In this document: positions 7,165-18,873 of the stretch, in pieces
How the letters are laid out: every line of letters starts with the position of its first letter
Position numbering within the stretch: position 1 is the first letter of the stretch
NCBI GenBank assembly: GCA_018266795.1
Contig: JAFDZV010000004.1
Coordinates: forward strand, 17,364 to 67,320
Source of the DNA: Bacteroidota bacterium
Lineage (GTDB): Bacteria; Bacteroidota; Ignavibacteria; OLB7
Direction: 5' to 3'
DNA: 49,957 nt
The notes under the pieces: generated by a model
Told to the model about the DNA's origin: nothing
Database searches by the model: none
What the model saw: the letters and a program-made list of their open reading frames with translations, nothing else
Made by a program: the position numbers and the translations under genes

Positions 7165-8628
7165 ATGAACGCCAAGCCATCAATCTACCGCCTGCTTGCA
7201 GGGCTACTCGCATCACTTTCGTTTGTCGGCTGCATGACTGTGAACAACTACGGCGTCCAGCCGACGGCGCAATCGGGCACGCCCGCAGCACAGCGCGATG
7301 TCGCGAGCCGCGACGGCTCCGATTGCGGATGCCGCAACGGCCAGGGAGGAGTAAGCTACTATCCGGCTCCCAACTATCAGGGGGGCTACTACTCCGGCGG
7401 ATACTATCCTCAGTATCCGTATTACTCCGGGACGCCCTACTATTCCGGAGCGCCATACTATGCGCCGCCGTACTACGCACCGGACTATGGGTACTATCCG
7501 CCATACCGGCCCTCCTCCGGAAACGGTTCAATGGGCGAACGTGCCGGCAGCGACGATCGCTCCTCGTCGCAGCCGGCCGATGGAAGCGCCGGCAGCGCGC
7601 ACGATATCGGCGGTTATGCGGGGAATGATGACGGCATCCCCGAAGGCAACGGCGCAAGCGTGCGCCGCCATCGTCCCTCTCGTGCGAACGGTCCCGAGGC
7701 AACAATCAAGGACGAAACGCCTGCAAGCTCCGGTCTGGGCTCGCACGAGCGGCGTCCGGTGGATGTCTCCACTGCCGATGTGAATCAACATGGGGACCAG
7801 GATACGGCCTCGCGTGTATCCGTACATGGCGCGGGAGCAGGCAGCGGCGCAACGCGGCACGGCGGCACCCGGGCGGGAGCGCCCTCGCATGGAGACAGTG
7901 CCAGCTCCGGCGTTCGGAAGAACGAGGGAACACATTATATCGGCTCCGGCGTTGGCTCCGCAACTACCGGCTCGCGGTCGCAGGGCGTGGGTGCACGTTC
8001 GCGTCGTTCGCAGACGCCTCCTACCGATAACCCGCATGCAGCCCAGGGAGGCACCTCCGCGGAAGGTTCGAACGCGCACAGCATCGGCTCCGGCGCAACC
8101 GGGCAGCCGGCCAATGTGGGCAGCGCGCCGGCCGGTAGCGGCGGTGATGCGCATGCGGTGTCCGGGCGGCAGCGGAACGTTGGCAGCGCCACCGTGAGCC
8201 GCGGGAACGACCCGCACGCGGCGGCAGCGGAGGGTTCGAACGCGCACAGCATCGGCTCCGGCGCAACCAGGCAGCCGGCCAATGTGGGCAGCGCGCCGGC
8301 CGGCAGCGGCGGTGATGCGCATGCGGTGTCCGGGCGGCAGCGGAATGCAGGCAGTGCCACCGTGAGCCGTGGGAACGATCCGCATGCGGCGGCATCCGGT
8401 GCGAAGCAGTCAGGTTCCAAGCCTGCGGAGACATCGACAACCGGGGCAGACAACGCCGATGTCCATACGGCAACAGGGTCGTCCGCCGGATCGAAGCATG
8501 ATCGTCCCGCGCAGGATTCTCCCGCGAACGGATCGCATTCCACCGATCTGCACTCCGCAGGCACCGCGCGTGCTACTGACCCCGCGCCTGCCAGGGCAGA
8601 CGGAAGTGACGCCCGCGTCAACCCGTAG
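7165..8628 (+). CDS. Repetitive Tyr/Gly/Ser-rich lipoprotein
   Basis: The 487-residue product is not a family I recognise. Residues 1-23 form a lipoprotein signal ending in the lipobox FVGC, so it is probably anchored in the envelope through Cys23. Residues about 55-115 are strikingly rich in Tyr, Pro and Gly (YYSG, YYAPP repeats). The rest is low-complexity Ser/Gly/Ala/His sequence, including a 56-residue unit present twice in tandem (DNA 8062-8229 and 8230-8397). Such disordered, aromatic-rich and repetitive composition is seen in surface-matrix and cell-wall-linked proteins, but no function can be assigned. Start ATG is supported by GGAGG seven bases upstream. Confidence 0.8.
   Translation: MNAKPSIYRLLAGLLASLSFVGCMTVNNYGVQPTAQSGTPAAQRDVASRDGSDCGCRNGQGGVSYYPAPNYQGGYYSGGYYPQYPYYSGTPYYSGAPYYAPPYYAPDYGYYPPYRPSSGNGSMGERAGSDDRSSSQPADGSAGSAHDIGGYAGNDDGIPEGNGASVRRHRPSRANGPEATIKDETPASSGLGSHERRPVDVSTADVNQHGDQDTASRVSVHGAGAGSGATRHGGTRAGAPSHGDSASSGVRKNEGTHYIGSGVGSATTGSRSQGVGARSRRSQTPPTDNPHAAQGGTSAEGSNAHSIGSGATGQPANVGSAPAGSGGDAHAVSGRQRNVGSATVSRGNDPHAAAAEGSNAHSIGSGATRQPANVGSAPAGSGGDAHAVSGRQRNAGSATVSRGNDPHAAASGAKQSGSKPAETSTTGADNADVHTATGSSAGSKHDRPAQDSPANGSHSTDLHSAGTARATDPAPARADGSDARVNP
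8062..8397 (+). repeat. Two tandem 168-bp in-frame repeats
   Basis: Two copies (8062-8229 and 8230-8397) share nearly all bases and encode a 56-residue unit beginning EGSNAHSIGSGAT. The 168-bp length keeps the frame, so copy number could change without breaking the gene. Confidence 0.9.
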
Positions 8629-8721
8629 CGGCCTGAAGATCTGCTGCATTGAACGTGTCCGCACGCTCACATCCGAGCGTTTCTTCGCAGTTGCTCCCGG
8701 CATCAGGCTCCGGTTTCGGCG

Positions 8722-8752
8722 TTGTCAGCCTGCGGCAAGCTCTCTATCTTGC
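8722..8752 (+). promoter_or_regulatory. Promoter of the M16 protease gene
   Basis: TTG (8722-8724), 20 bp, TATCTTGC (8745-8752) fits the -33/-7 pattern recurring in the window. It lies about 50 bases before the ATG at 8801. Confidence 0.5.
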
Positions 8753-8800
8753 GCGCTTATCGAGCATGAACTCCTTTGCACATTCTTTCCACATCCATCC

Positions 8801-11743
8801 ATGAAACTCAAGTCAATCCTCGTGCTGCTTCCGCTGGTTATTGCGGCAGGCATGCTGAACCTCGAGAGCGGAGCGGCACAGGGGGGCGGCAGAGCTCCAG
8901 GCGGTGCGTACACCTTCTCGACGGTGCCGGGCGATCCCACCGGCGCCCGAATCTATACGTTGAAGAATGGTCTGACGGTGATGATCTCCGTCAATCGGAA
9001 CGAACCGCGTATCCAGACGCTGATCACGACGCGCGGCGGAAGCAAGAACGATCCGTCCTACAACACCGGCCTTGCGCACTATCTGGAGCATATGCTCTTC
9101 AAGGGAACCGACCAGTTCGGTACCAAGGATTATGCGAAGGAGAAGGTGTATCTGGATGAGATCGAGGGATTGTACGAGCAGTACAACCACAACACGGACA
9201 AGGCGCAGCGCGCGGCGATCTATCACAGGATCGATTCGGTGTCCGGCGTTGCGGCGCACTACGCGATCGCCAACGAGTACGACAAGCTTACCGGTGCCAT
9301 CGGTGCGAAGGGAACCAATGCGTTCACATCCGTTGAGCAGACCACCTATGTCAACGACATCCCGCAGAACCAGTTGGAGAAGTGGCTGGTGATTGAAGGG
9401 GAGCGCTTCCGCAATCCGGTGTTCCGTCTCTTCCACACGGAGTTGGAGGCAGTCTACGAGGAGAAGAACATCGGGCTGGACAATGACGATCGCAAGGCCA
9501 GCGAGGCGTTGATGGCTGGGCTCTTCCAGCATCACCCGTACGGAACGCAGACAACGATCGGCACGGTGGAGCATCTGAAGAACCCGTCGCTCAAGGAGAT
9601 CCGCAAGTTCTACAACATGTACTACGTGCCGAACAACATGGCGGTGATCCTGGTGGGCGATCTGGATCCCGACAATGCCGTTGCGCTGGTGGACAAGTAC
9701 ATGGGAGCGCTTCCATCGAAGCCGATCCCGGCGTTCACCTTCCAGCCGGAGGTGCCCCGCACCAAGCCGCTCGAGATCAATGTCTATGGCCCGGATGCGG
9801 AGAACGTTTCGATCGCCTACCGCTTTCCCGGCGCAGGCACGCGCGATGCAGTCCTGCTGGAGCTGACCGATCTGTTGCTCGCCTACAAGACGGCCGGCCT
9901 GATCGATCTGAACCTGAAGAAGAAGCAACTGGTGCTGGATGCCGGCAGCTCCCCTTCGATCATGCACGACTACAGCTTCCATCGCTTCAGCGGCGTCCCG
10001 AAGCAGGGGCAGACGCTGGAGCAGGTGCGCGATCTTCTGTTGCAGCAGATCGGCAAGTTGAAGAAGGGAGAGTTCGATGAGCAGGCGATGGCGGCGGTGC
10101 TCAAGAATCTGAAGGTGGACCAGATACGCCAGTACGAGACGAACGAGGGGCGCGCCTTCGCCTTGCTCGATGCGTTCACGCTCGGCCAGGATTGGAAGGC
10201 GTACAGCACCAAGCTGGATATGATGAGCCACTTTACCAAGAAGGACATCGTGGAATTCGCCAACAAGTACTACGGCAACGACTACGTTGTGGTGTACAAG
10301 CGAATCGGTGAGGACAAGTCCGTGGTGAAGGTGGAGAAGCCGCCGATCACGCCGGTGGATGTGAACCGTGACGATCAGTCGGATTTCCTGAAGCGTGTGC
10401 TTGCGATGAAGACGCCGGAGATCCAGCCGGTGTTCCTGGATTACAACAAGGACATCGCTCGCGGTGCCATGAAGGATGGCTCGCAGGTATACTATCTCGA
10501 GAACAAGGAGAACGGCCTCTTCACGCTCAGCTATGTCTTCGATATGGGGAAGCGCAACGATAAGAAGCTGCCGTTCGCCATCCGGTACATTCAATATCTG
10601 GGAACGGACAAGTACTCCGCCGAGCAGCTTTCGAAGGAGTTCTTCAAGCTGGGCTGCGAGTTCAACGTGGCCTCGACCGAGGAGCAGACCACGCTGACGC
10701 TGAGCGGATTGCAGGAGAGCTTTGTGCCGGCGGTTGAGCTGTTCGATCATCTCCTCACCCACGTCAAGCCGGACCAGAAGGCGCTGGACGGCGTGATTGC
10801 CCAGGAGTTGAAGGCGCGCCAGGATGCCAAGCAGGACAAGCGGACCATTCTGGCAAGCGCGCTCTACAGTTACGCAATCTATGGCAAACACAATCCGTTC
10901 ACCGATCAGTTGAGCGAGAAGGAGTTGAAGGGATTGAAGGCGGAGGAGCTGGTTGGCTACATCAAGGGGCTGAGCGGCTACAAGCACCGCGTGCTCTACT
11001 ACGGCCCGGCTTCCAGGAACGACGTGATCGCCACGCTCGATGCCAAGCACTACAGTCCGGCAACGCAGCGCGACGTTCCGCCACCGGTACAGTACCAGCG
11101 GAACGACATGAAGGAGAGCACGGTCTACTTCGTGAACTACGACATGGTGCAGGCGGAGGTGATCTGGACAAGCAAGTCCAATCCGTTCGATGCACGCGTT
11201 ATCCCCGTGGCCTCGCTCTTCAACGAGTACTACGGCGGCGGCATGTCGTCCGTCATCTTCCAGATACTCCGCGAGTCCAAGGCGCTCGCCTACTCCACGT
11301 TCTCCTCGTACCAGATCCCAGCGAAGAAGACCGATCCCGAGTATGTCTTCGCCTACATCGGCACGCAGGCGGACAAGCTCGGTGATGCCGTTCCGGCGAT
11401 GAAGGATCTGCTGGACAACATGCCGAAGACGGAGCAGGCGTTCGTGACGGCTCGCGACGGGCTCAAGAATCAGCTCGAGACGGAGCGCATCACGAAGAGC
11501 GCAATCCTCTTCAGCTGTCTTGCGGCGGAGAAGCGCGGCCTGACGTACGACATTCGCAAGGATGTCTACAACTCGCTGGACAAGCTCACACTTGCGGATC
11601 TGCAGAAGTTCCACGACGATCGCTACAAGGGGCGACTCTATTCCCTCTGCGTGATCGGCTCCAAGGAGAAGCTGGATCAGAAAGTGCTGGGCCAGTACGG
11701 CAAGGTGGTGAATCTGAGCCTGAACGATATCTTCGGGTACTGA
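8801..11743 (+). CDS. Double-length M16 (pitrilysin-type) zinc metalloprotease
   Basis: The 980-residue product has a signal peptide (about 1-26) and two tandem M16 halves. The first half carries the inverted zinc motif HYLEH (His93, Glu96, His97) and a downstream ELEAVYEE segment; by comparison with pitrilysin, Glu221 would be the third zinc ligand. An insertion of about 45 residues between these parts (VYLDEIEGLYEQYN onward) is seen in many Bacteroidota members. The second half (from about residue 520) lacks HxxEH and is probably the inactive partner lobe. The enzyme likely degrades peptides in the periplasm. Although the frame is open further upstream, that part overlaps the preceding lipoprotein gene; ATG 8801 gives the signal peptide and follows a promoter. 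A strong terminator follows. Confidence 0.95.
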   Translation: MKLKSILVLLPLVIAAGMLNLESGAAQGGGRAPGGAYTFSTVPGDPTGARIYTLKNGLTVMISVNRNEPRIQTLITTRGGSKNDPSYNTGLAHYLEHMLFKGTDQFGTKDYAKEKVYLDEIEGLYEQYNHNTDKAQRAAIYHRIDSVSGVAAHYAIANEYDKLTGAIGAKGTNAFTSVEQTTYVNDIPQNQLEKWLVIEGERFRNPVFRLFHTELEAVYEEKNIGLDNDDRKASEALMAGLFQHHPYGTQTTIGTVEHLKNPSLKEIRKFYNMYYVPNNMAVILVGDLDPDNAVALVDKYMGALPSKPIPAFTFQPEVPRTKPLEINVYGPDAENVSIAYRFPGAGTRDAVLLELTDLLLAYKTAGLIDLNLKKKQLVLDAGSSPSIMHDYSFHRFSGVPKQGQTLEQVRDLLLQQIGKLKKGEFDEQAMAAVLKNLKVDQIRQYETNEGRAFALLDAFTLGQDWKAYSTKLDMMSHFTKKDIVEFANKYYGNDYVVVYKRIGEDKSVVKVEKPPITPVDVNRDDQSDFLKRVLAMKTPEIQPVFLDYNKDIARGAMKDGSQVYYLENKENGLFTLSYVFDMGKRNDKKLPFAIRYIQYLGTDKYSAEQLSKEFFKLGCEFNVASTEEQTTLTLSGLQESFVPAVELFDHLLTHVKPDQKALDGVIAQELKARQDAKQDKRTILASALYSYAIYGKHNPFTDQLSEKELKGLKAEELVGYIKGLSGYKHRVLYYGPASRNDVIATLDAKHYSPATQRDVPPPVQYQRNDMKESTVYFVNYDMVQAEVIWTSKSNPFDARVIPVASLFNEYYGGGMSSVIFQILRESKALAYSTFSSYQIPAKKTDPEYVFAYIGTQADKLGDAVPAMKDLLDNMPKTEQAFVTARDGLKNQLETERITKSAILFSCLAAEKRGLTYDIRKDVYNSLDKLTLADLQKFHDDRYKGRLYSLCVIGSKEKLDQKVLGQYGKVVNLSLNDIFGY

Positions 11744-11851: not shown

Positions 11852-12286
11852 TCATTGGATGCGCGGCGTCTCGAGTTCCGCATGCGGCGCTGCCTGCGCC
11901 GGCTGGTTCGCCATGGGACCGCACGGCGACTTGTAGTGAATGATGCCTGCGCGCGCGGCGGCCTGCATTACCAGGTTGAGCCGGATGCTCTCACCGGGCC
12001 TGCAGATCACCCGGGTTTCAAACGTCGTCGATCGATCCGCGTACGCGCGAAGCTGGCAGGGGCCGGCGCCGGCGGTGTTGATGACGAAGGAACCATCGGT
12101 TGCGGTAACGGCATCGGTTACCTGATGCCCGTCGTACAGCCTGAGCATTGCATCGCCGATGGGATTCCCTTTCTCATCCACCACGCGTCCTGAAATGGTT
12201 GCCGGCGGCTCCTGTGCACACAACGGTGCGCTCGTTGCGCAATGCAGCGCAACACATGCAAGTACGATTCTCATGATTCTGTTCAT
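11852..12286 (-). CDS. Small exported CarboxypepD regulatory-like domain protein
   Basis: The product of 144 residues has a signal peptide and a single CarboxypepD regulatory-like (transthyretin-fold) domain, with the signature ISGRVVDEKGNPIGDAMLRL followed by a TDGSFVIN strand. In TonB-dependent receptors this domain precedes the plug; here nothing but a short Pro/Ala-rich tail follows. It is the last of four minus-strand genes sharing such modules. Several Cys are present. The ATG at 12286 is chosen since it puts the signal peptide at the N-terminus; a start 12 bases downstream or 42 bases upstream is possible, and no ribosome binding site decides. Molecular role unknown. Confidence 0.75.
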   Translation of the reverse strand: MNRIMRIVLACVALHCATSAPLCAQEPPATISGRVVDEKGNPIGDAMLRLYDGHQVTDAVTATDGSFVINTAGAGPCQLRAYADRSTTFETRVICRPGESIRLNLVMQAAARAGIIHYKSPCGPMANQPAQAAPHAELETPRIQ

Positions 12287-12686
12287 GGCGCTGAGGGGAG
12301 TGAATGTGAGGATGTGAGCCGTCTCCACCCTTCAGGTCGGATATCATTGGCAAGCACTTGCGCAATACCACGATGGTGCTTCATTGCACTTCTTCCGTTC
12401 GAGTCCGATGCTGGTTTGCGAGAGATGATTGTATGCGCCGCTCGGAGCGTGAGCCGTGATACGCATCTGCCGCCGAATGGGGCGGACGACCCGCCCATTT
12501 CCATGAGCGGGCCGTCCGTTTCTCCCTCGCTGTGCTGATGAGGAGCCAGCCTTCGGTTGCCATGCGCGCCATATGGTTGCGGCATGCACGGCATGAGTTG
12601 TCGGTGCACAGTTGCCACACGAACCACCGTGCACCGGCTTCCCCGTTCCGGCCGATAGGGGAAGCCAGGCCCGGCGATCGGGGAGA
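12287..12686. other. 400-base gap within the receptor-module cluster
   Basis: No gene is supported. A 12-base stem with one mismatch (12483-12494 with 12507-12518) follows the VWA gene at a distance of about 170 bases, with a T-rich stretch on its plus-strand side. The rest probably contains the promoter of the small CarboxypepD gene, which I could not pinpoint. Confidence 0.5.
12483..12518. terminator. Hairpin downstream of the VWA gene
   Basis: CGGACGACCCGC and its complement form 11 pairs with a single A-C mismatch around a 12-base loop. The T-rich side (GTTTCTCCCT) is on the plus strand, although the nearest upstream gene is on the minus strand, so its use as terminator is unsure. Confidence 0.4.
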
Positions 12687-14780
12687 TCATTCTGTTCCAG
12701 TGGCGGAGCGTGCATACCTTCCCACGAGGTCCACGAACTCCGCCCGGTATCCGAATACGTCGTCGCCGGCCGCGCCGCGCGCGGCGGCAAGCACGTGATT
12801 CAGCGATGCTTCCCCCTTGTACTTCGAGTCGCGAAGCAGAAGCCCGAACTCCGCCACGGCGCTCGCGAATCGAAAGTTGTCGCTGGTGGAGGCCGGTTCC
12901 ACGATCGCCACCGCTACCGGATGCTCCAGCAGTCTGCTCGCGCTGTCGTCGGGGCGCTTGTAGCGGAGGCGAATGTCCAGCAACTCGCCGCCGAACACCG
13001 GCTCCGCGTTTACGCGTGCCGGACGGTAGCGCAGCGAGAGATCGGAAAGCCTGGCGCTGTCCGCGTTGTAGCGGGCATGCGCGGCCGGAACGATTTCGTA
13101 CAGCGCCGTAACGGATTGGCCTGCACCCATGTCGCCGGCGTCCTTCCGGTCGTTCGCGAAGTCCTCCGTCTTCAGTATGCGATCCTCGTAGCCGACAAGG
13201 CGGTACGATGCCACCGTCGCCGGATTGAACTCCACCTGAAGCTTCACATCCTTCGCGATCGTCATCAGCGTTCCACAGATCTGATTGGCCAGCACGCGCT
13301 CCGCCTCGCTGAGGTTGTCCAGAAAGGCATAGGTGCCGTTGCCGTTGTCGGCGAGCATCTCCATCGTCTGGTCGCCGTAATGACTCGTGCCAACGCCGAG
13401 CGCAGTGAGGAAGATTCCGTCCTTTCGCTCCTCCTCGATAAGCTTGAGCAGTTTCGTTCTGTCCGTGATGCCGACGTTGAAGTCACCGTCGGTGGCGAGT
13501 ATCACGCGCGTATTCGCACCGTTCGAGTGCATGCGCCGTGCGAGATCGTATGCCGCAACGATCCCGCCGCTGCCGTTGGTTCCGCCGCCTGCTCCCAGCC
13601 CGTTGATCACCGCCATGATGCGCTCCTTCTCGGCTCCGGATGTGGGTTCCAGAGCGGTTCCGGTATAGCCGGCATAGGTTACGATGGCGATGCTGTCCTG
13701 CGGGCGAAGCTGCTTCACGAGGAGGGCAAACGCCTGCTTCAACAGCGGCAGACTCTCAGGGATGGACATCGAGCCGGAGACATCGATCAGGAACACCAGA
13801 TTGCTTGGAGGCATCGATGCGAGAGCGATATGCCGTCCCTGCAACCCGATGCTGACCAGCCGGTGCTCCGCATTCCACGGGCATGTGGAGACCTCCGTGG
13901 TTACCGAGAAGGGATCGTCGCCTGCCGGTTCCGGATAGTGATAGGTGAAATAGTTGATCAGTTCCTCGATGCGCACCAGTTGTCGTGCCACGGTGCGCCC
14001 GCTGCGTATGCTGCCGCGAACGATTCCGTACGAGGCAGCATCCACGTCGATGGAGAAGGTGGAGAGCTGCTGGTTGACAGGTGAGATGAAATCGTTCTCC
14101 GGCAGCTTCTGCCTCGTCGTATCTGTCGCGGTGACTTCCCGCGCATTCCTCTGTTCATCATTGGCGCGGATCTTGGCGTTCACAGGGCCACAGAGATCGT
14201 TGCCGAACTCTGGTCCGAAGCCGCTGGTCTGTACCTGCACGCGCGGCACTTCGAGTGAGCTCGCCGTTGGATCGCTGTTCGAGGTGCCACTCAAACCTCC
14301 ATTGAAGGGATCGGCAGATTCCGTGCCATCAGCGAGAGATGTCGCCGGAGGTATTAGCCCACCACGTATCGATAAGCCGTTGGTGCCCCCCTGCCGAGTT
14401 CCTACCTCTCCAAACGAAGCGGCGTTGCCCGACATCACGATTTCCGCGCCGGACAATGGCTTCGGTGACAACCTGATGATGATTGCCGTAGTGTCGTGTG
14501 TCCGTACCGCTACCCTGATGGAGTATTGATGAAAGCCCACATACGTTGCCGTCAGATCATACGTGCCCGGGCAGACACCGGTGATGATAAAGGCCCCGTC
14601 CCTTCCGGACTTGGCTCCCTGCGTGGTTCCGTTCAAACGGACCGTGGCACCCTGCAGCGGCTTCGCATCCGCATCGGTTACGCGGCCGGCAACGGTTCCG
14701 TAGTCATCTGCAGTTGCGGACGTCGCGGCCAGCAGAATGCCGAGCAGTCCGAACAACAGGAGTCGAGGTTCGCGTTTCAT
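12687..14780 (-). CDS. Exported von Willebrand A protein with CarboxypepD and TonB-plug-like N-terminal part
   Basis: The 697-residue product has a signal peptide (1-24) and a CarboxypepD regulatory-like domain (about 28-105, AGRVTDADAKPLQGATVRL). Next comes a stretch matching the TonB-receptor plug (IRGG at 138-141, DPFNGG at 157-162, VQVQTSGFGPEFGND at 181-195, then CGPVNAKIR), without a barrel. From about 228 it is a YfbK-type VWA protein: the VWA N-terminal segment with SPVNQQLSTFSIDVDAASY, the VWA domain with a complete metal site (DVSGS 333-337, T401, D431), and a C-terminal DUF3520-like region. VWA domains bind partner proteins through a metal ion. The start is supported by GGAGA upstream. 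Neighbours on both sides share the receptor-like modules. Function unknown. Confidence 0.9.
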   Translation of the reverse strand: MKREPRLLLFGLLGILLAATSATADDYGTVAGRVTDADAKPLQGATVRLNGTTQGAKSGRDGAFIITGVCPGTYDLTATYVGFHQYSIRVAVRTHDTTAIIIRLSPKPLSGAEIVMSGNAASFGEVGTRQGGTNGLSIRGGLIPPATSLADGTESADPFNGGLSGTSNSDPTASSLEVPRVQVQTSGFGPEFGNDLCGPVNAKIRANDEQRNAREVTATDTTRQKLPENDFISPVNQQLSTFSIDVDAASYGIVRGSIRSGRTVARQLVRIEELINYFTYHYPEPAGDDPFSVTTEVSTCPWNAEHRLVSIGLQGRHIALASMPPSNLVFLIDVSGSMSIPESLPLLKQAFALLVKQLRPQDSIAIVTYAGYTGTALEPTSGAEKERIMAVINGLGAGGGTNGSGGIVAAYDLARRMHSNGANTRVILATDGDFNVGITDRTKLLKLIEEERKDGIFLTALGVGTSHYGDQTMEMLADNGNGTYAFLDNLSEAERVLANQICGTLMTIAKDVKLQVEFNPATVASYRLVGYEDRILKTEDFANDRKDAGDMGAGQSVTALYEIVPAAHARYNADSARLSDLSLRYRPARVNAEPVFGGELLDIRLRYKRPDDSASRLLEHPVAVAIVEPASTSDNFRFASAVAEFGLLLRDSKYKGEASLNHVLAAARGAAGDDVFGYRAEFVDLVGRYARSATGTE

Positions 14781-14865
14781 GATGGTTCTCCCGAGAGTGC
14801 ATTGGTGCCATGTTGCTGTTCATCGTATCGTGTCTGCGGCGTTCCGTTCAACGTGGTCCGTCGTG

Positions 14866-15642
14866 CTAGTACATCGGGCGCTCCCTCGCCGTTGCATTCC
14901 GTGCCGCCCGTTCCGTCTCCCGGGCGGCAAGCAGGCTCCGGATCTCGCAGTTGTTGACGACGCCGCTCAGAATCTCCCCGCTCTCCGGAGCGAAGCTGTT
15001 CGGCAGGATCGGCACGTCCACCGCGGTGATCGCGCTGGCGGAGATGCACGCCGGCATGCCGAACCCGCCAACGACCGGATCGTTGATGTCGGGGGTGCCC
15101 GTGCGGATGGCAGTGTCCGCCCCGCGCCTCCCACGTATCGTGAACGGCGTTGGATCCTGCAGGCCCACGACCGCCTGGATCGACACGCGTGAACTCTGCT
15201 CCGGTGTTGCGCGATTGTTCGACGAAGGGCCCCTCCCGTTACCGCGGGTCTTCTCGGTTCTCGCGAGCGTGTCGTGCGGGCAGGAGGTATCCAGCTTCAT
15301 CGCTGCGTTGAGAATGGTAACCTGGCCTGCCGATACCGTGATCGTTGTCCTGTAGGGAATGAAGCAGTGGCACGTGATGTTCGCCACGTAGTCGCCGGCG
15401 CCTACGTTCGCGATGAAGAACCGTCCGCTTGCCCTGGATATCGCTCCCTGTGTTGTTCCCGCCAGACGGATCGTTGCTCCGCTCAACGGCCGCCCATGCT
15501 CGTCGACTATCATGCCGGTAACCGAGCCGGCCGTTGGTGTCGTGGCGATGCCGGTAACGGTGCCGAGGCTCTGCGCCGTTGTGGGGGCGGCGGCCAGCAT
15601 CCCGAGAAGAAGAACGGCAGGAGGTAGGTGACGGCATTTCAT
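14866..15642 (-). CDS. Exported CarboxypepD plus degenerate TonB-plug protein lacking a barrel
   Basis: The 258-residue product has a signal peptide (about 1-24), a CarboxypepD regulatory-like domain (about 40-118; VTGMIVDEHGRPLSGATIRL) and a region that reads like a TonB-receptor plug: TIRGRRGADTAIR (168-180), NDPVVGGFG (187-195), SASAITAVDV (201-210) and FAPESGEILSGVVN (217-230). Full receptors continue for several hundred residues of barrel; this one ends about 28 residues later in an Arg/Ala-rich tail. There are Cys pairs at 91/93 and single Cys at 121, 199 and 232. ATG 15642 is chosen because it starts the signal peptide and follows CGGAG. The stop lies 85 bases before the VWA gene, so the two may be cotranscribed. 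Role unknown; a partner or decoy for envelope proteins is conceivable. Confidence 0.82.
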   Translation of the reverse strand: MKCRHLPPAVLLLGMLAAAPTTAQSLGTVTGIATTPTAGSVTGMIVDEHGRPLSGATIRLAGTTQGAISRASGRFFIANVGAGDYVANITCHCFIPYRTTITVSAGQVTILNAAMKLDTSCPHDTLARTEKTRGNGRGPSSNNRATPEQSSRVSIQAVVGLQDPTPFTIRGRRGADTAIRTGTPDINDPVVGGFGMPACISASAITAVDVPILPNSFAPESGEILSGVVNNCEIRSLLAARETERAARNATARERPMY

Positions 15643-15843
15643 CGTGTACTCCGCAGGGCGCAATTCATGAATGATCGTTGATATGTTCATCTGTTTATCG
15701 GGGAGCATCGTCGGGGCCTCTGTTGCGCGTACGCCAGGCAACGTTGCGAACAGGGCAGGCAGGGGCATTGCCGCCGGCATCTGCAGGCGCGCACCGCGTT
15801 GATTCTCCAATGGGCTGGTTGATCTCGTTGCGTTCGACCGCCG

Positions 15844-16287
15844 CTATTCCAGGCGCGGCCTGTCGGGTGCTGTTCCCGCCTTCTGCGTCTCCTGTTCGTC
15901 CTCGGGAATGTAGCCGGTGGAAACCACGATCACTTCCACGGGATCGTTCGTCGCCATGGGCATCGGGCGTCCGCCTGCCGGCCGGCCGGAACCGGGCTGG
16001 GGCATGGGTGCGTTCACCATCGAAAACGGATGGGGCCCGGCGATTCCGTCGATATGGATTACCGGAGTGCCGGCCGGTGATGCGCGGCTGCAGGCCAAGG
16101 TGCTGGCGGGAGGTTTCTCCCTGCGATGCCGGGGGGCGGCGGCATGACGTCTCGTATCATGATGCATCCTATCATATCGTGATACGATATATCGTGCCCC
16201 GTGCTCTCTTCCTGCGGATGCATGAGCGGCGGCCAATGCGAGGATCGGCAGTGCCAGCGCGATCGATCGCGAGTAGAGCTTCATCAT
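15844..16287 (-). CDS. Small exported protein with TonB-plug-like motifs
   Basis: The 147-residue product has a signal peptide (about 1-25) and a His/Arg-rich segment, then TPVIHIDGIAG (resembling the VDG motif of receptor plugs) and EVIVVSTGY (resembling the EVVVTGY start of plugs in SusC-like receptors). No complete domain can be claimed. It precedes two genes with clearer receptor modules on the same strand and may form one unit with them, although 201 bases separate it from the next. The start ATG follows a GAGG ribosome site; the adjacent second ATG is equally possible. The early coding part holds an AT-rich inverted repeat (16174-16190). Function unknown. Confidence 0.6.
   Translation of the reverse strand: MMKLYSRSIALALPILALAAAHASAGREHGARYIVSRYDRMHHDTRRHAAAPRHRREKPPASTLACSRASPAGTPVIHIDGIAGPHPFSMVNAPMPQPGSGRPAGGRPMPMATNDPVEVIVVSTGYIPEDEQETQKAGTAPDRPRLE
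16174..16190. repeat. Inverted repeat in an AT-rich patch
   Basis: ATATCGT (16174-16180) and ACGATAT (16184-16190) are exact inverted copies with a 3-base gap. They lie inside the start of the small plug-motif gene, in a patch rich in TCGTAT/ATCATA strings that stands out from its GC-rich surroundings. Confidence 0.6.
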
Positions 16288-17610: not shown

Positions 17611-17826
17611 GCTACTCTTCTCCTACGAATGGAGATACCGTCGAGTCCGCAATCATTGAGGCGGCAACGATTGCGGCACATGCTGAGTTGACGTACCACG
17701 TTTCAGGTGATTGGTAACATGCATCGAACCGAAGGTGGCTCCGCGTGTCGGCTGCATGGTCTCCGAGCATGCACAACTTCTACTCCCCTGCGTAACTTCG
17801 GGAAACAACAACACGATGCGAAGATC

Positions 17827-18873
17827 ATGAGACCGATTCTCTCCACGGTTGAACAGTTCATGAAGCAGTCGCTGGCCGATCCCGGGCGTAAGTTCCGGTT
17901 TGCCCTGTGCCTGCTCGTCCTGCTGGTGACCGTTGGTTCCGTCGGCTTCATGGCGATCGAGAAGACGAGCGTGGTGGACGCGTTCTACATGGCCGTGACC
18001 ACCATCACCACGGTGGGGTTCGGCGAAGTGCATCCGTTCTCGCCGGAAGGTCGGGTCTTCGTGATCGGCTATATCGTGCTCGGCGTGGGAGCGGCGGCAT
18101 GGGCGTTCGCAACTGGTGCGGAGATGTTGCTCGGCGACAAGCTGTGGGCCTCCGTGCGGCAACGACGAATGAAACAGACGTTGATGAAACTCGAAGATCA
18201 CTACATCATCTGCGGATTCGGTCGCCTTGGCCGGCCGATTATCACAGACATGCGTTCGCGCGGAGAGCAGTTCGTCGTGGTGGAGAACAATGGAGCCAAG
18301 GAGGAACGGCTGCTGGACGCCGTTGTGCCGTTCGTGATCGGCGACGCCACGCAGGAGGAAGTGCTGCTGCGTGCGGGGCTGTTGCGGGCGCGCGGAATCG
18401 TGATCACGCTCGACAACGATGCGGAGAACGTGCTTGCCGTGCTGACGGCACGAGAGTTGAATCCGAAGATTCTGATTGTCGCCCGTGCGAACAGCGAGAG
18501 CGCCGAGAGCAAGCTGCGCCGGGCCGGGGCCGATCGCGTGATCAGTCTGGACACCATTGCCGGGCGGCGGCTGGCGCTGGCGACGCTGCAGCCGAAGGTG
18601 CACGACTTCCTCGAGCGGGTCTTCAGCCTGGAGCAGTTGGAAGCCAACATCGATGAGCTTCGGGTTGCCGCCGGATCGCCCCTCGTAGGGCAGCTGATCG
18701 GGGAGTGCGATCTGCGCTCGCGCTGGAACGTGACGGTGCTGGCGGTGCAGAATCCGAACGGCGAGTTCATCGTGAGCCCCGACGCGGCGCGCGCGATCGA
18801 GCCGGGAGAAACGCTGATCGTGATGGGGTCGCGCCTTGCAACGCGCGATGCGATCGCGGCACTCACCCGCTGA
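17827..18873 (+). CDS. Two-TM potassium channel with RCK (TrkA-N/TrkA-C) domains
   Basis: The 348-residue product is an MthK-like ion channel subunit. Two membrane segments (about 24-45 and 76-97) flank a pore loop with the K+ selectivity filter TVGFG (62-66). A cytoplasmic RCK domain follows, with the Rossmann motif GFGRLG (130-135), and then a TrkA-C domain (about 275-348; RVAAGSPLVGQLIG). Such channels form tetramers gated by nucleotides or Ca2+ bound to the RCK ring and adjust membrane potential or turgor. ATG 17827 starts the normal short cytoplasmic N-terminus; an earlier in-frame start is possible but would add an unrelated Cys/Thr-rich extension. No ribosome binding site is evident. 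Confidence 0.93.
   Translation: MRPILSTVEQFMKQSLADPGRKFRFALCLLVLLVTVGSVGFMAIEKTSVVDAFYMAVTTITTVGFGEVHPFSPEGRVFVIGYIVLGVGAAAWAFATGAEMLLGDKLWASVRQRRMKQTLMKLEDHYIICGFGRLGRPIITDMRSRGEQFVVVENNGAKEERLLDAVVPFVIGDATQEEVLLRAGLLRARGIVITLDNDAENVLAVLTARELNPKILIVARANSESAESKLRRAGADRVISLDTIAGRRLALATLQPKVHDFLERVFSLEQLEANIDELRVAAGSPLVGQLIGECDLRSRWNVTVLAVQNPNGEFIVSPDAARAIEPGETLIVMGSRLATRDAIAALTR

Follow-up and report, generated by a model that had tools for sequence, protein, structure and literature searches.

Copies of a TonB-dependent receptor 5′ end form a barrel-less gene array in an Ignavibacteria genome, with one copy joined in frame to a YfbK-type VWA gene

The window analysed here, a 49,957-nucleotide stretch of an Ignavibacteria genome (Bacteroidota), carries on its minus strand three genes for exported proteins with a CarboxypepD_reg/NTE-like domain (CTD). 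The largest (12,687–14,780), delimited by ORF, Pfam, receptor alignment and AlphaFold2, encodes a 697-amino-acid protein in which a CTD (residues 29–104; 14,469–14,696), a Ton-box-like segment (AEIVMSGN, residues 112–119; 14,424–14,447) and a plug remnant (residues 128–207; 14,160–14,399) precede a YfbK core (12,717–14,114). The second (14,866–15,642) encodes a barrel-less protein of 258 amino acids with a CTD (15,295–15,525) and a plug remnant (14,950–15,225); its full ORF spans 14,866–15,810, and the ATG at 15,642 yields the 258-residue product. The third (11,852–12,328) encodes a CTD-only protein of 158 amino acids, or ∼146 from an inner ATG. A first-pass annotation had read a CarboxypepD domain in all three proteins, and Pfam agrees (697 aa, E = 7.4e-16; 258 aa, E = 2.7e-14; 158 aa, E = 4.8e-11); the profile match, together with a beta-sandwich fold in the models, places these domains in the CTD/NTE group (PF13620/PF13715). 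Two plus-strand genes, whose families were assigned by reading their sequences, serve as synteny anchors: an M16-type peptidase (8,369–11,743; the true start is probably within the ORF) and a K+ channel with a TrkA-like part (17,707–18,873). A promoter and terminator scan, which is uninformative for this phylum, gave no matches.

The annotation had counted four exported minus-strand genes, the fourth being a 147-aa ORF (15,844–16,287) with the pieces IDG and EVIVVSTGY. This ORF had no family match in a profile search and no relative with E <0.1 across five related genomes, and its codon signature is weak (GC1/2/3 = 0.66/0.57/0.68). The two pieces stand in the reverse of their order in receptors and are, to judge from the sequence, probably a chance occurrence. 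We therefore regard it as a doubtful gene outside the array on present evidence, which leaves three of the four.

The VWA part of the largest protein is complete, as first described: vWF_A (PF12450; residues 223–309; E = 3.5e-33), VWA (327–491; E = 1.4e-15) and YfbK_C (PF12034; 503–688; E = 3.5e-64) follow one another in the order of the YfbK family. Its metal site (DxSxS, T, D) is intact, with D333, S335, S337, T401 and D431 invariant among 49 homologues. The N-terminus, MKREPRLLLFGLLGILLAATSATADD, read directly, holds no SHLS motif, and the leader is followed directly by the CTD, with no cytoplasmic anti-sigma part or membrane helix. The core reaches its highest identity, 55%, with a YfbK from the same family that lacks a CTD; a quick tree joined two long branches and left the core unplaced. 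A scan of genome contigs found only five YfbK relatives, all distant. As the same genome also encodes a second YfbK, which lacks a CTD and starts with a lipoprotein-type leader, the CTD is dispensable for YfbK as such. The window protein shares the three-part core and metal site of its family, but in place of the short lipoprotein leader it has a receptor-derived CTD, a Ton-box-like segment and a plug remnant.

Detection of the plug-like segments depended on the profile used. Pfam Plug (PF07715) matched none of the array proteins even at E = 10, and it barely matches the plug of the resident receptor itself (24.3 bits; cut-off 23.9). A profile built from Oar-type receptors, with the window sequences excluded, succeeded where Pfam failed, matching the VWA protein at residues 128–207 (E = 1.4e-15) and the 258-aa protein (E = 5.8e-13). 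Alignment to receptors showed ∼30 plug residues to be absent from the VWA protein. AlphaFold2 modelled the CTDs of both proteins with pLDDT >90 and the VWA domain with confidence, and gave both plug segments a pLDDT <50 (residues 111–222 in the VWA protein). These segments are homologous to receptor plugs but are shortened remnants, predicted to be disordered. The description 'free plugs' was an overstatement: the modules are CTD proteins whose plug parts are shortened remnants and probably disordered. A Ton-box motif trained on receptors without the window sequence placed the segment of the VWA protein at the receptor position (p = 0.002, on the sequence motif only); at p <0.05, such a segment was present in 16 of 33 CTD-YfbK proteins versus 1 of 10 small array proteins. 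This segment was acquired together with the N-terminus and may be passive.

The beta-barrel proposed to be missing is indeed missing. No array protein matches the 22-strand barrel of TonB-dependent receptors (PF00593), and a search of all window frames with the two closest full receptors, which match the window over their first 230–260 residues only, found no barrel remnant and ruled out a barrel in another frame. As the barrel is absent, the proteins do no transport. Compared with Oar-like and SusC-like receptors that carry a CTD (NTE), the window proteins have a homologous signal peptide, CTD, Ton-box region and plug start, but differ in the shortened, predicted disordered plug and in the lack of a barrel.

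What has been copied to form the array is the 5′ end of the gene for the resident Oar-like TonB-dependent receptor, a stretch that encodes the signal peptide, CTD/NTE domain, Ton-box region and plug start; one of the copies is joined in frame to a YfbK-type VWA gene. The first 206 residues of the VWA protein share 46% identity with residues 1–234 of the resident receptor and group with it in a tree at 100/99 support, and therefore the join looks recent; a tree constrained to keep the receptor orthologs together was rejected (p-AU 0.0026). The 258-aa protein is 36% identical to receptor residues 15–230. Codon-position ratios, derived from protein-guided alignments and near saturation, were 2.08 for the CTD of the VWA protein, 1.7–1.8 between receptors and 1.2–1.4 for the small window genes, showing that the codon-position pattern of the VWA protein resembles that of functional receptors. 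Wholesale concerted evolution of each array with its receptor was rejected: the tree gives no single group per array, so we claim the pairing for the VWA N-terminus and its receptor only.

We compared the locus with one other member of the genus and with sister genera. In the related genome, a CTD array lies between the same flanking genes (M16 peptidase 66%, K+ channel 55% identical) and encodes CTD proteins of 289, 131, 149, 178 and 373 amino acids; a further three CTD copies are found a short way upstream of the receptor gene in that genome. No barrel was found at this syntenic locus, so that the first-pass alternative of barrels in frame in relatives and a frameshift in the window found no counterpart. 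In sister genera, M16 orthologs were located with no array beside them, which rules out conservation of the array across these genera. An array at this position thus occurs in one genus only.

We give about an even chance to the reading that the locus encodes a functional exported CTD/Ton-box–VWA protein, with the small genes as its partly decaying by-products. Somewhat less probable, yet a serious contender, is that the 258- and 158-aa genes are simply by-products, now decaying, of a receptor 5′ end that was duplicated repeatedly, and that only the VWA protein, or no product at all, is active. The restriction of the array to one genus and the weak codon-position ratios of the small genes fit such decay, as do plug remnants that end at different plug positions and are predicted to be disordered; in addition, one array copy of the related genome is out of frame inside the plug (L133:9180-9730). 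However, the small ORFs are open with a CTD core ∼27–36% identical to the receptor, a folded CTD is predicted with high confidence for the 258-aa protein, and both genus members have retained CTD copies at this position. For the small genes, the frameshifted sister copy and the differing end points make the earlier argument against simple decay too strong.

It is very unlikely that the array instead serves as a reservoir of alternative N-termini for the receptor, which would recombine with the 5′ end of the full receptor gene by gene conversion and vary the periplasmic part of the receptor. Receptor orthologs do diverge most at this end (identity 46% in the CTD, 55% in the plug, 67% in the barrel), with nucleotide similarity beginning only at base 480; each receptor gene matches the array copies of its own genome over short nucleotide stretches, and the related genome keeps three copies just upstream of its receptor gene. 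Nonetheless, these matches are short (45–156 bases) and 67–82% identical, unlike recent conversion tracts, and the tree does not group each genome's array with its receptor. Moreover, the CTD faces the periplasm, where variation has no obvious use in escape from immunity or phage.

Barrel-less CTD(-plug)-YfbK proteins recur in many Bacteroidota families; a plug without a barrel, first taken as exceptional, is widespread in CTD-plug-VWA proteins. An ECF sigma gene lies within 2.5 kb of 28 of 71 Bacteroidota YfbK loci (∼2.5 expected), and at many loci an anti-sigma-like protein that contains a CTD, TonB_C or plug part is encoded nearby. Among relatives, zf-HC2-CTD-YfbK genes directly follow a sigma gene, anti-sigma-like CTD-TonB_C proteins adjoin YfbK genes, and truly free plug proteins accompany some YfbK loci. 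The flavobacterial-type CTD-plug-YfbK proteins (L088, L091 and L093) have the same part order as the window protein and are barrel-less, but keep a full Pfam plug, and most adjoin an ECF sigma gene; L091 and L093 additionally carry a cytoplasmic part and a membrane helix, as read from sequence, unlike the window protein. Relatives carry anti-sigma parts and adjoin ECF sigma genes as in ECF sigma/anti-sigma cell-surface signalling, but the window protein lacks an anti-sigma part and has no sigma gene beside it. As the window holds no sigma ORF, its signalling link is one of analogy: the earlier suggestion of signalling was a sensible guess in view of the recurring join beside ECF sigma genes, but the copy in the window lacks such partners. 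Two described systems are also comparable. Dma anti-sigma factors (PMC13088901) end in a barrel, which the window protein does not. The vWA force transducers (PMC12204202) have a periplasmic vWA fold resembling YfbK and a proposed link to a Ton/Tol-type motor, but they carry an N-terminal helix with SHLS where the window protein has an export leader, and have tolQ/tolR-like motor genes, none of which was found near the window protein when its neighbours were read by eye.

As the same join recurs across the phylum, often beside stress-signalling genes, the VWA protein probably has an envelope-sensing role, by analogy, rather than being plain debris. In the model we favour, it would reach the periplasm by export. 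There the CTD and Ton-box-like segment, taken over from the receptor, would act as a docking part and deliver the VWA head either to the Ton machinery or to receptor complexes on their periplasmic side. The plug remnant, being disordered, would serve as a flexible linker, and the head might bind a protein partner through its metal site, sensing the envelope as proposed for the relatives linked to ECF sigma/anti-sigma genes. With no sigma partner adjoining it, the window copy may act in trans or have lost the link. The 258- and 158-aa genes would be sister copies that kept a folded CTD and no plug fold, and at least some small copies of this kind are presumably decaying. VWA domains whose metal site is intact often serve in binding, and pilus adhesins, along with many other VWA proteins, are among the structural neighbours of the fold, but we think it very unlikely that the free modules bind the VWA protein in an assembly or adhesion complex on the cell surface: no surface anchor and no secretion signal beyond the N-terminal leader was recognised in a search that did not include tail-signal profiles, and the plug parts are predicted to be disordered. 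Splitting of one full receptor gene by an assembly or sequencing error, which receptor-like N-termini without barrels might suggest, can be dismissed, because no window frame holds barrel sequence, the VWA join lies in one open frame and the related genome carries the same kind of array.

The envelope-sensing reading can tentatively be widened, at clearly less than an even chance, to Bacteroidota as a whole. CTD/NTE, Ton-box and plug modules detached from receptors would be part of a TonB-linked envelope-signalling system, in which two kinds of protein, anti-sigma proteins bearing a CTD, Ton box, TonB_C or half-plug and VWA proteins of the CTD(-plug)-YfbK type, sense or hold one another by way of the contacts that couple receptor and TonB; the window would show new members arising by 5′-end capture. 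Deletion of the NTE from one receptor is dominant-negative, NTE function is unknown and the Ton box comes after the NTE (PMC7782687). Proteins that have no pore and keep the CTD and Ton-box segment separate CTD/NTE function from transport, making it testable. The open-access literature, outside which most subscription journals lie, yielded neither a reported function for YfbK nor a paper describing its linkage to ECF sigma genes and TonB modules. The repeated linkage of YfbK to ECF sigma genes and TonB-related modules offers a concrete hypothesis for its role.

Three exported products are encoded in the window, which comes from a genome of 5.97 Mb that probably belongs to the Bacteroidota, judging by the SusC-type proteins of its phylum relatives: proteins of 158 aa (11852-12328), 697 aa (the VWA protein, 12687-14780) and 258 aa (14866-15642), all on the minus strand. 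By sequence reading all three start with a leader of the export type, and Pfam places a CarboxypepD_reg domain (CTD) in every one. The first-pass annotation had counted a fourth, a 147-aa ORF (15844-16287, minus strand), for which we found no family match, no relative and only a weak codon signature. Its description of the largest product as a complete YfbK-type VWA protein was borne out, as Pfam and homologue alignment showed a full YfbK core with the metal-site residues present. The modules are likewise barrel-less as claimed, with no barrel sequence left anywhere in the window. As for the proposed plug-like segments, Pfam Plug matched neither the VWA nor the 258-aa protein, and it barely detected even the plug of the resident receptor, a complete Oar-like TonB receptor of 1081 aa in the same genome (L038:6638-9883; CTD, plug and barrel). 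An Oar-type plug profile, built with window sequences left out, matched both proteins (E 1.4e-15 for VWA, 5.8e-13 for 258 aa).

Residues 1-206 of the VWA protein match the resident receptor at 46% and the 258-aa protein matches it at 36%. The receptor match extends through the plug motifs, with VQVQTSGFGPEFGN common to both; the VWA protein is short of ∼30 plug residues relative to the receptor. A tree of the receptor N-terminal region placed the N-terminal part of the VWA protein together with the resident receptor (support 100/99), and holding receptor orthologs together was rejected (p-AU 0.0026). The grouping and this rejection indicate that the N-terminus would have been captured after the split from G001, a related genome of the same genus, or that gene conversion makes it appear so. 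In SusC-type receptors, the Ton box sits directly after the CTD (PMC7782687). At this position the VWA protein reads AEIVMSGN (p 0.002 with a motif learned from 26 receptor segments, window sequence left out). Motif p<0.05 was reached by 16/33 CTD-YfbK proteins versus 1/10 small array proteins, these being counts of related proteins rather than independent events; the sole small protein is the 258-aa window protein, whose segment reads unlike a Ton box.

AlphaFold2 predicted the CTD (28-103) and YfbK core of the VWA protein with confidence, with pLDDT below 50 for residues 111-222; in the 258-aa protein the CTD was confident and the plug part predicted disordered. The closest solved structure to the VWA protein, the archaeal ArnAB Sec23/24-like pair, covers the VWA part alone and is uninformative on function. 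Third-position excess relative to the receptor was clear in the VWA protein (2.08 in the CTD) and weaker in the small genes (1.36 for 258 aa, 1.2 for 158 aa); receptor orthologs compared with each other gave 1.7-1.8. All of these values approach saturation and are suggestive only. We consider the VWA protein likely to be functional.

A similar CTD array was found in G001, the sole other genus member compared, and not in sister genera, which have no such array beside their M16 orthologs. Between orthologs of the two genes that flank the window array, a K+ channel (55%) and an M16 peptidase (66%), G001 encodes five CTD proteins (289, 131, 149, 178 and 373 aa). The longest of them has a plug remnant, and three further CTD proteins lie upstream of the G001 receptor gene. 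The exported protein encoded at L133:4867-5736 combines two CTDs with a linker rich in acidic residues and proline. The closest receptor of most sufficiently long array copies is that of their own genome, a likeness that the tree backs firmly in one case alone, that of the VWA N-terminus. Our preferred reading of the window cluster is a lineage-specific case of recurrent copying of receptor 5' ends, one of which was captured by YfbK. Motifs kept in several genes had been taken to argue against simple decay. However, the 178-aa G001 gene (L133:9180-9730) is frameshifted inside the plug, whose motif resumes in another frame (L133:9188-9730), so decay does happen in array copies; the small window genes may likewise be decaying, or may encode CTD proteins that function. 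In a distant family, a CTD fragment stopping at the plug start, apparently split over two frames (L150:7950-8596), lies just downstream of a CTD-plug-YfbK gene, an arrangement resembling that of the window.

YfbK-type vWF_A was matched in 28/294 class genomes and 64/296 phylum genomes. Among 51 scanned sequences (49 YfbK and two receptor controls), 37 had a CTD and eight a Plug match at E 0.01, counting the controls. In flavobacterial-type L088, L091 and L093 a full Pfam plug precedes YfbK and there is no barrel. On the starred branches of the YfbK tree, CTD presence changes four times or more, so the domain was gained or lost repeatedly. YfbK genes stand in tandem at L177, L181, L182, L159 and L198; four of the five pair one with and one without a CTD, and at L198 both lack it, the second gene being short and diverged. 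At L201:4201-6217, two overlapping ORFs make up a split CTD-YfbK gene.

As no sigma gene adjoins the window VWA gene, its product has no anti-sigma part, and any signalling role would rest on relatives, we placed the protein in the YfbK family, with its N-terminus as a variant, and not among receptors, vWA force transducers or sigma/anti-sigma systems. The nearest papers concern the NTE domain (PMC7782687), vWA force transducers whose fold resembles that of YfbK (PMC12204202), and the Dma anti-sigma factors (PMC13088901); in the open-access literature we found no description of CTD(-plug)-YfbK or of a link between it and sigma genes.

Among the relatives, an ECF sigma gene lies within 2.5 kb of 28/71 YfbK loci (∼2.5 expected from measured sigma density). 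These loci are spread over 10/24 families, the safer count because loci of one family are not independent. In one family (f18), the protein has a zf-HC2 anti-sigma domain at its N-terminus and its gene directly follows the ECF sigma gene; at L148, L149, L151, L155 and L208 the order is ECF sigma gene, then zf-HC2, CTD, Ton-box-like segment, (half plug) and YfbK, with an overlap of a few bases between the sigma gene and the next. A further set of YfbK neighbours is anti-sigma-like, an assignment that we infer from their position and a membrane helix; Pfam named no anti-sigma domain in them. Some combine CTD, Ton-box-like segment and TonB C-terminal domain in one chain (L162:6863-8251, L164:6622-8001, L166:2679-3989, L156:2270-3535, L178:6313-7596, L179:6329-7597 and L186:2397-3674); CTD and TonB_C were matched in 7/7 neighbours tested, two below Pfam's cut-off. 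Others, between ECF sigma and YfbK genes, end in a half-plug (L170:3557-4528, L172:5842-6807, L173:6201-7166, L174:3128-4093, L159:2183-3091 and L176:6073-7113). Barrel-less exported plug proteins are encoded beside a sigma/plug-YfbK operon at L173:3614-3934, L152:2124-3347 and L153:6806-7336; the first and last of these are free plugs, the last with a full Pfam Plug match (E 3.6e-17).
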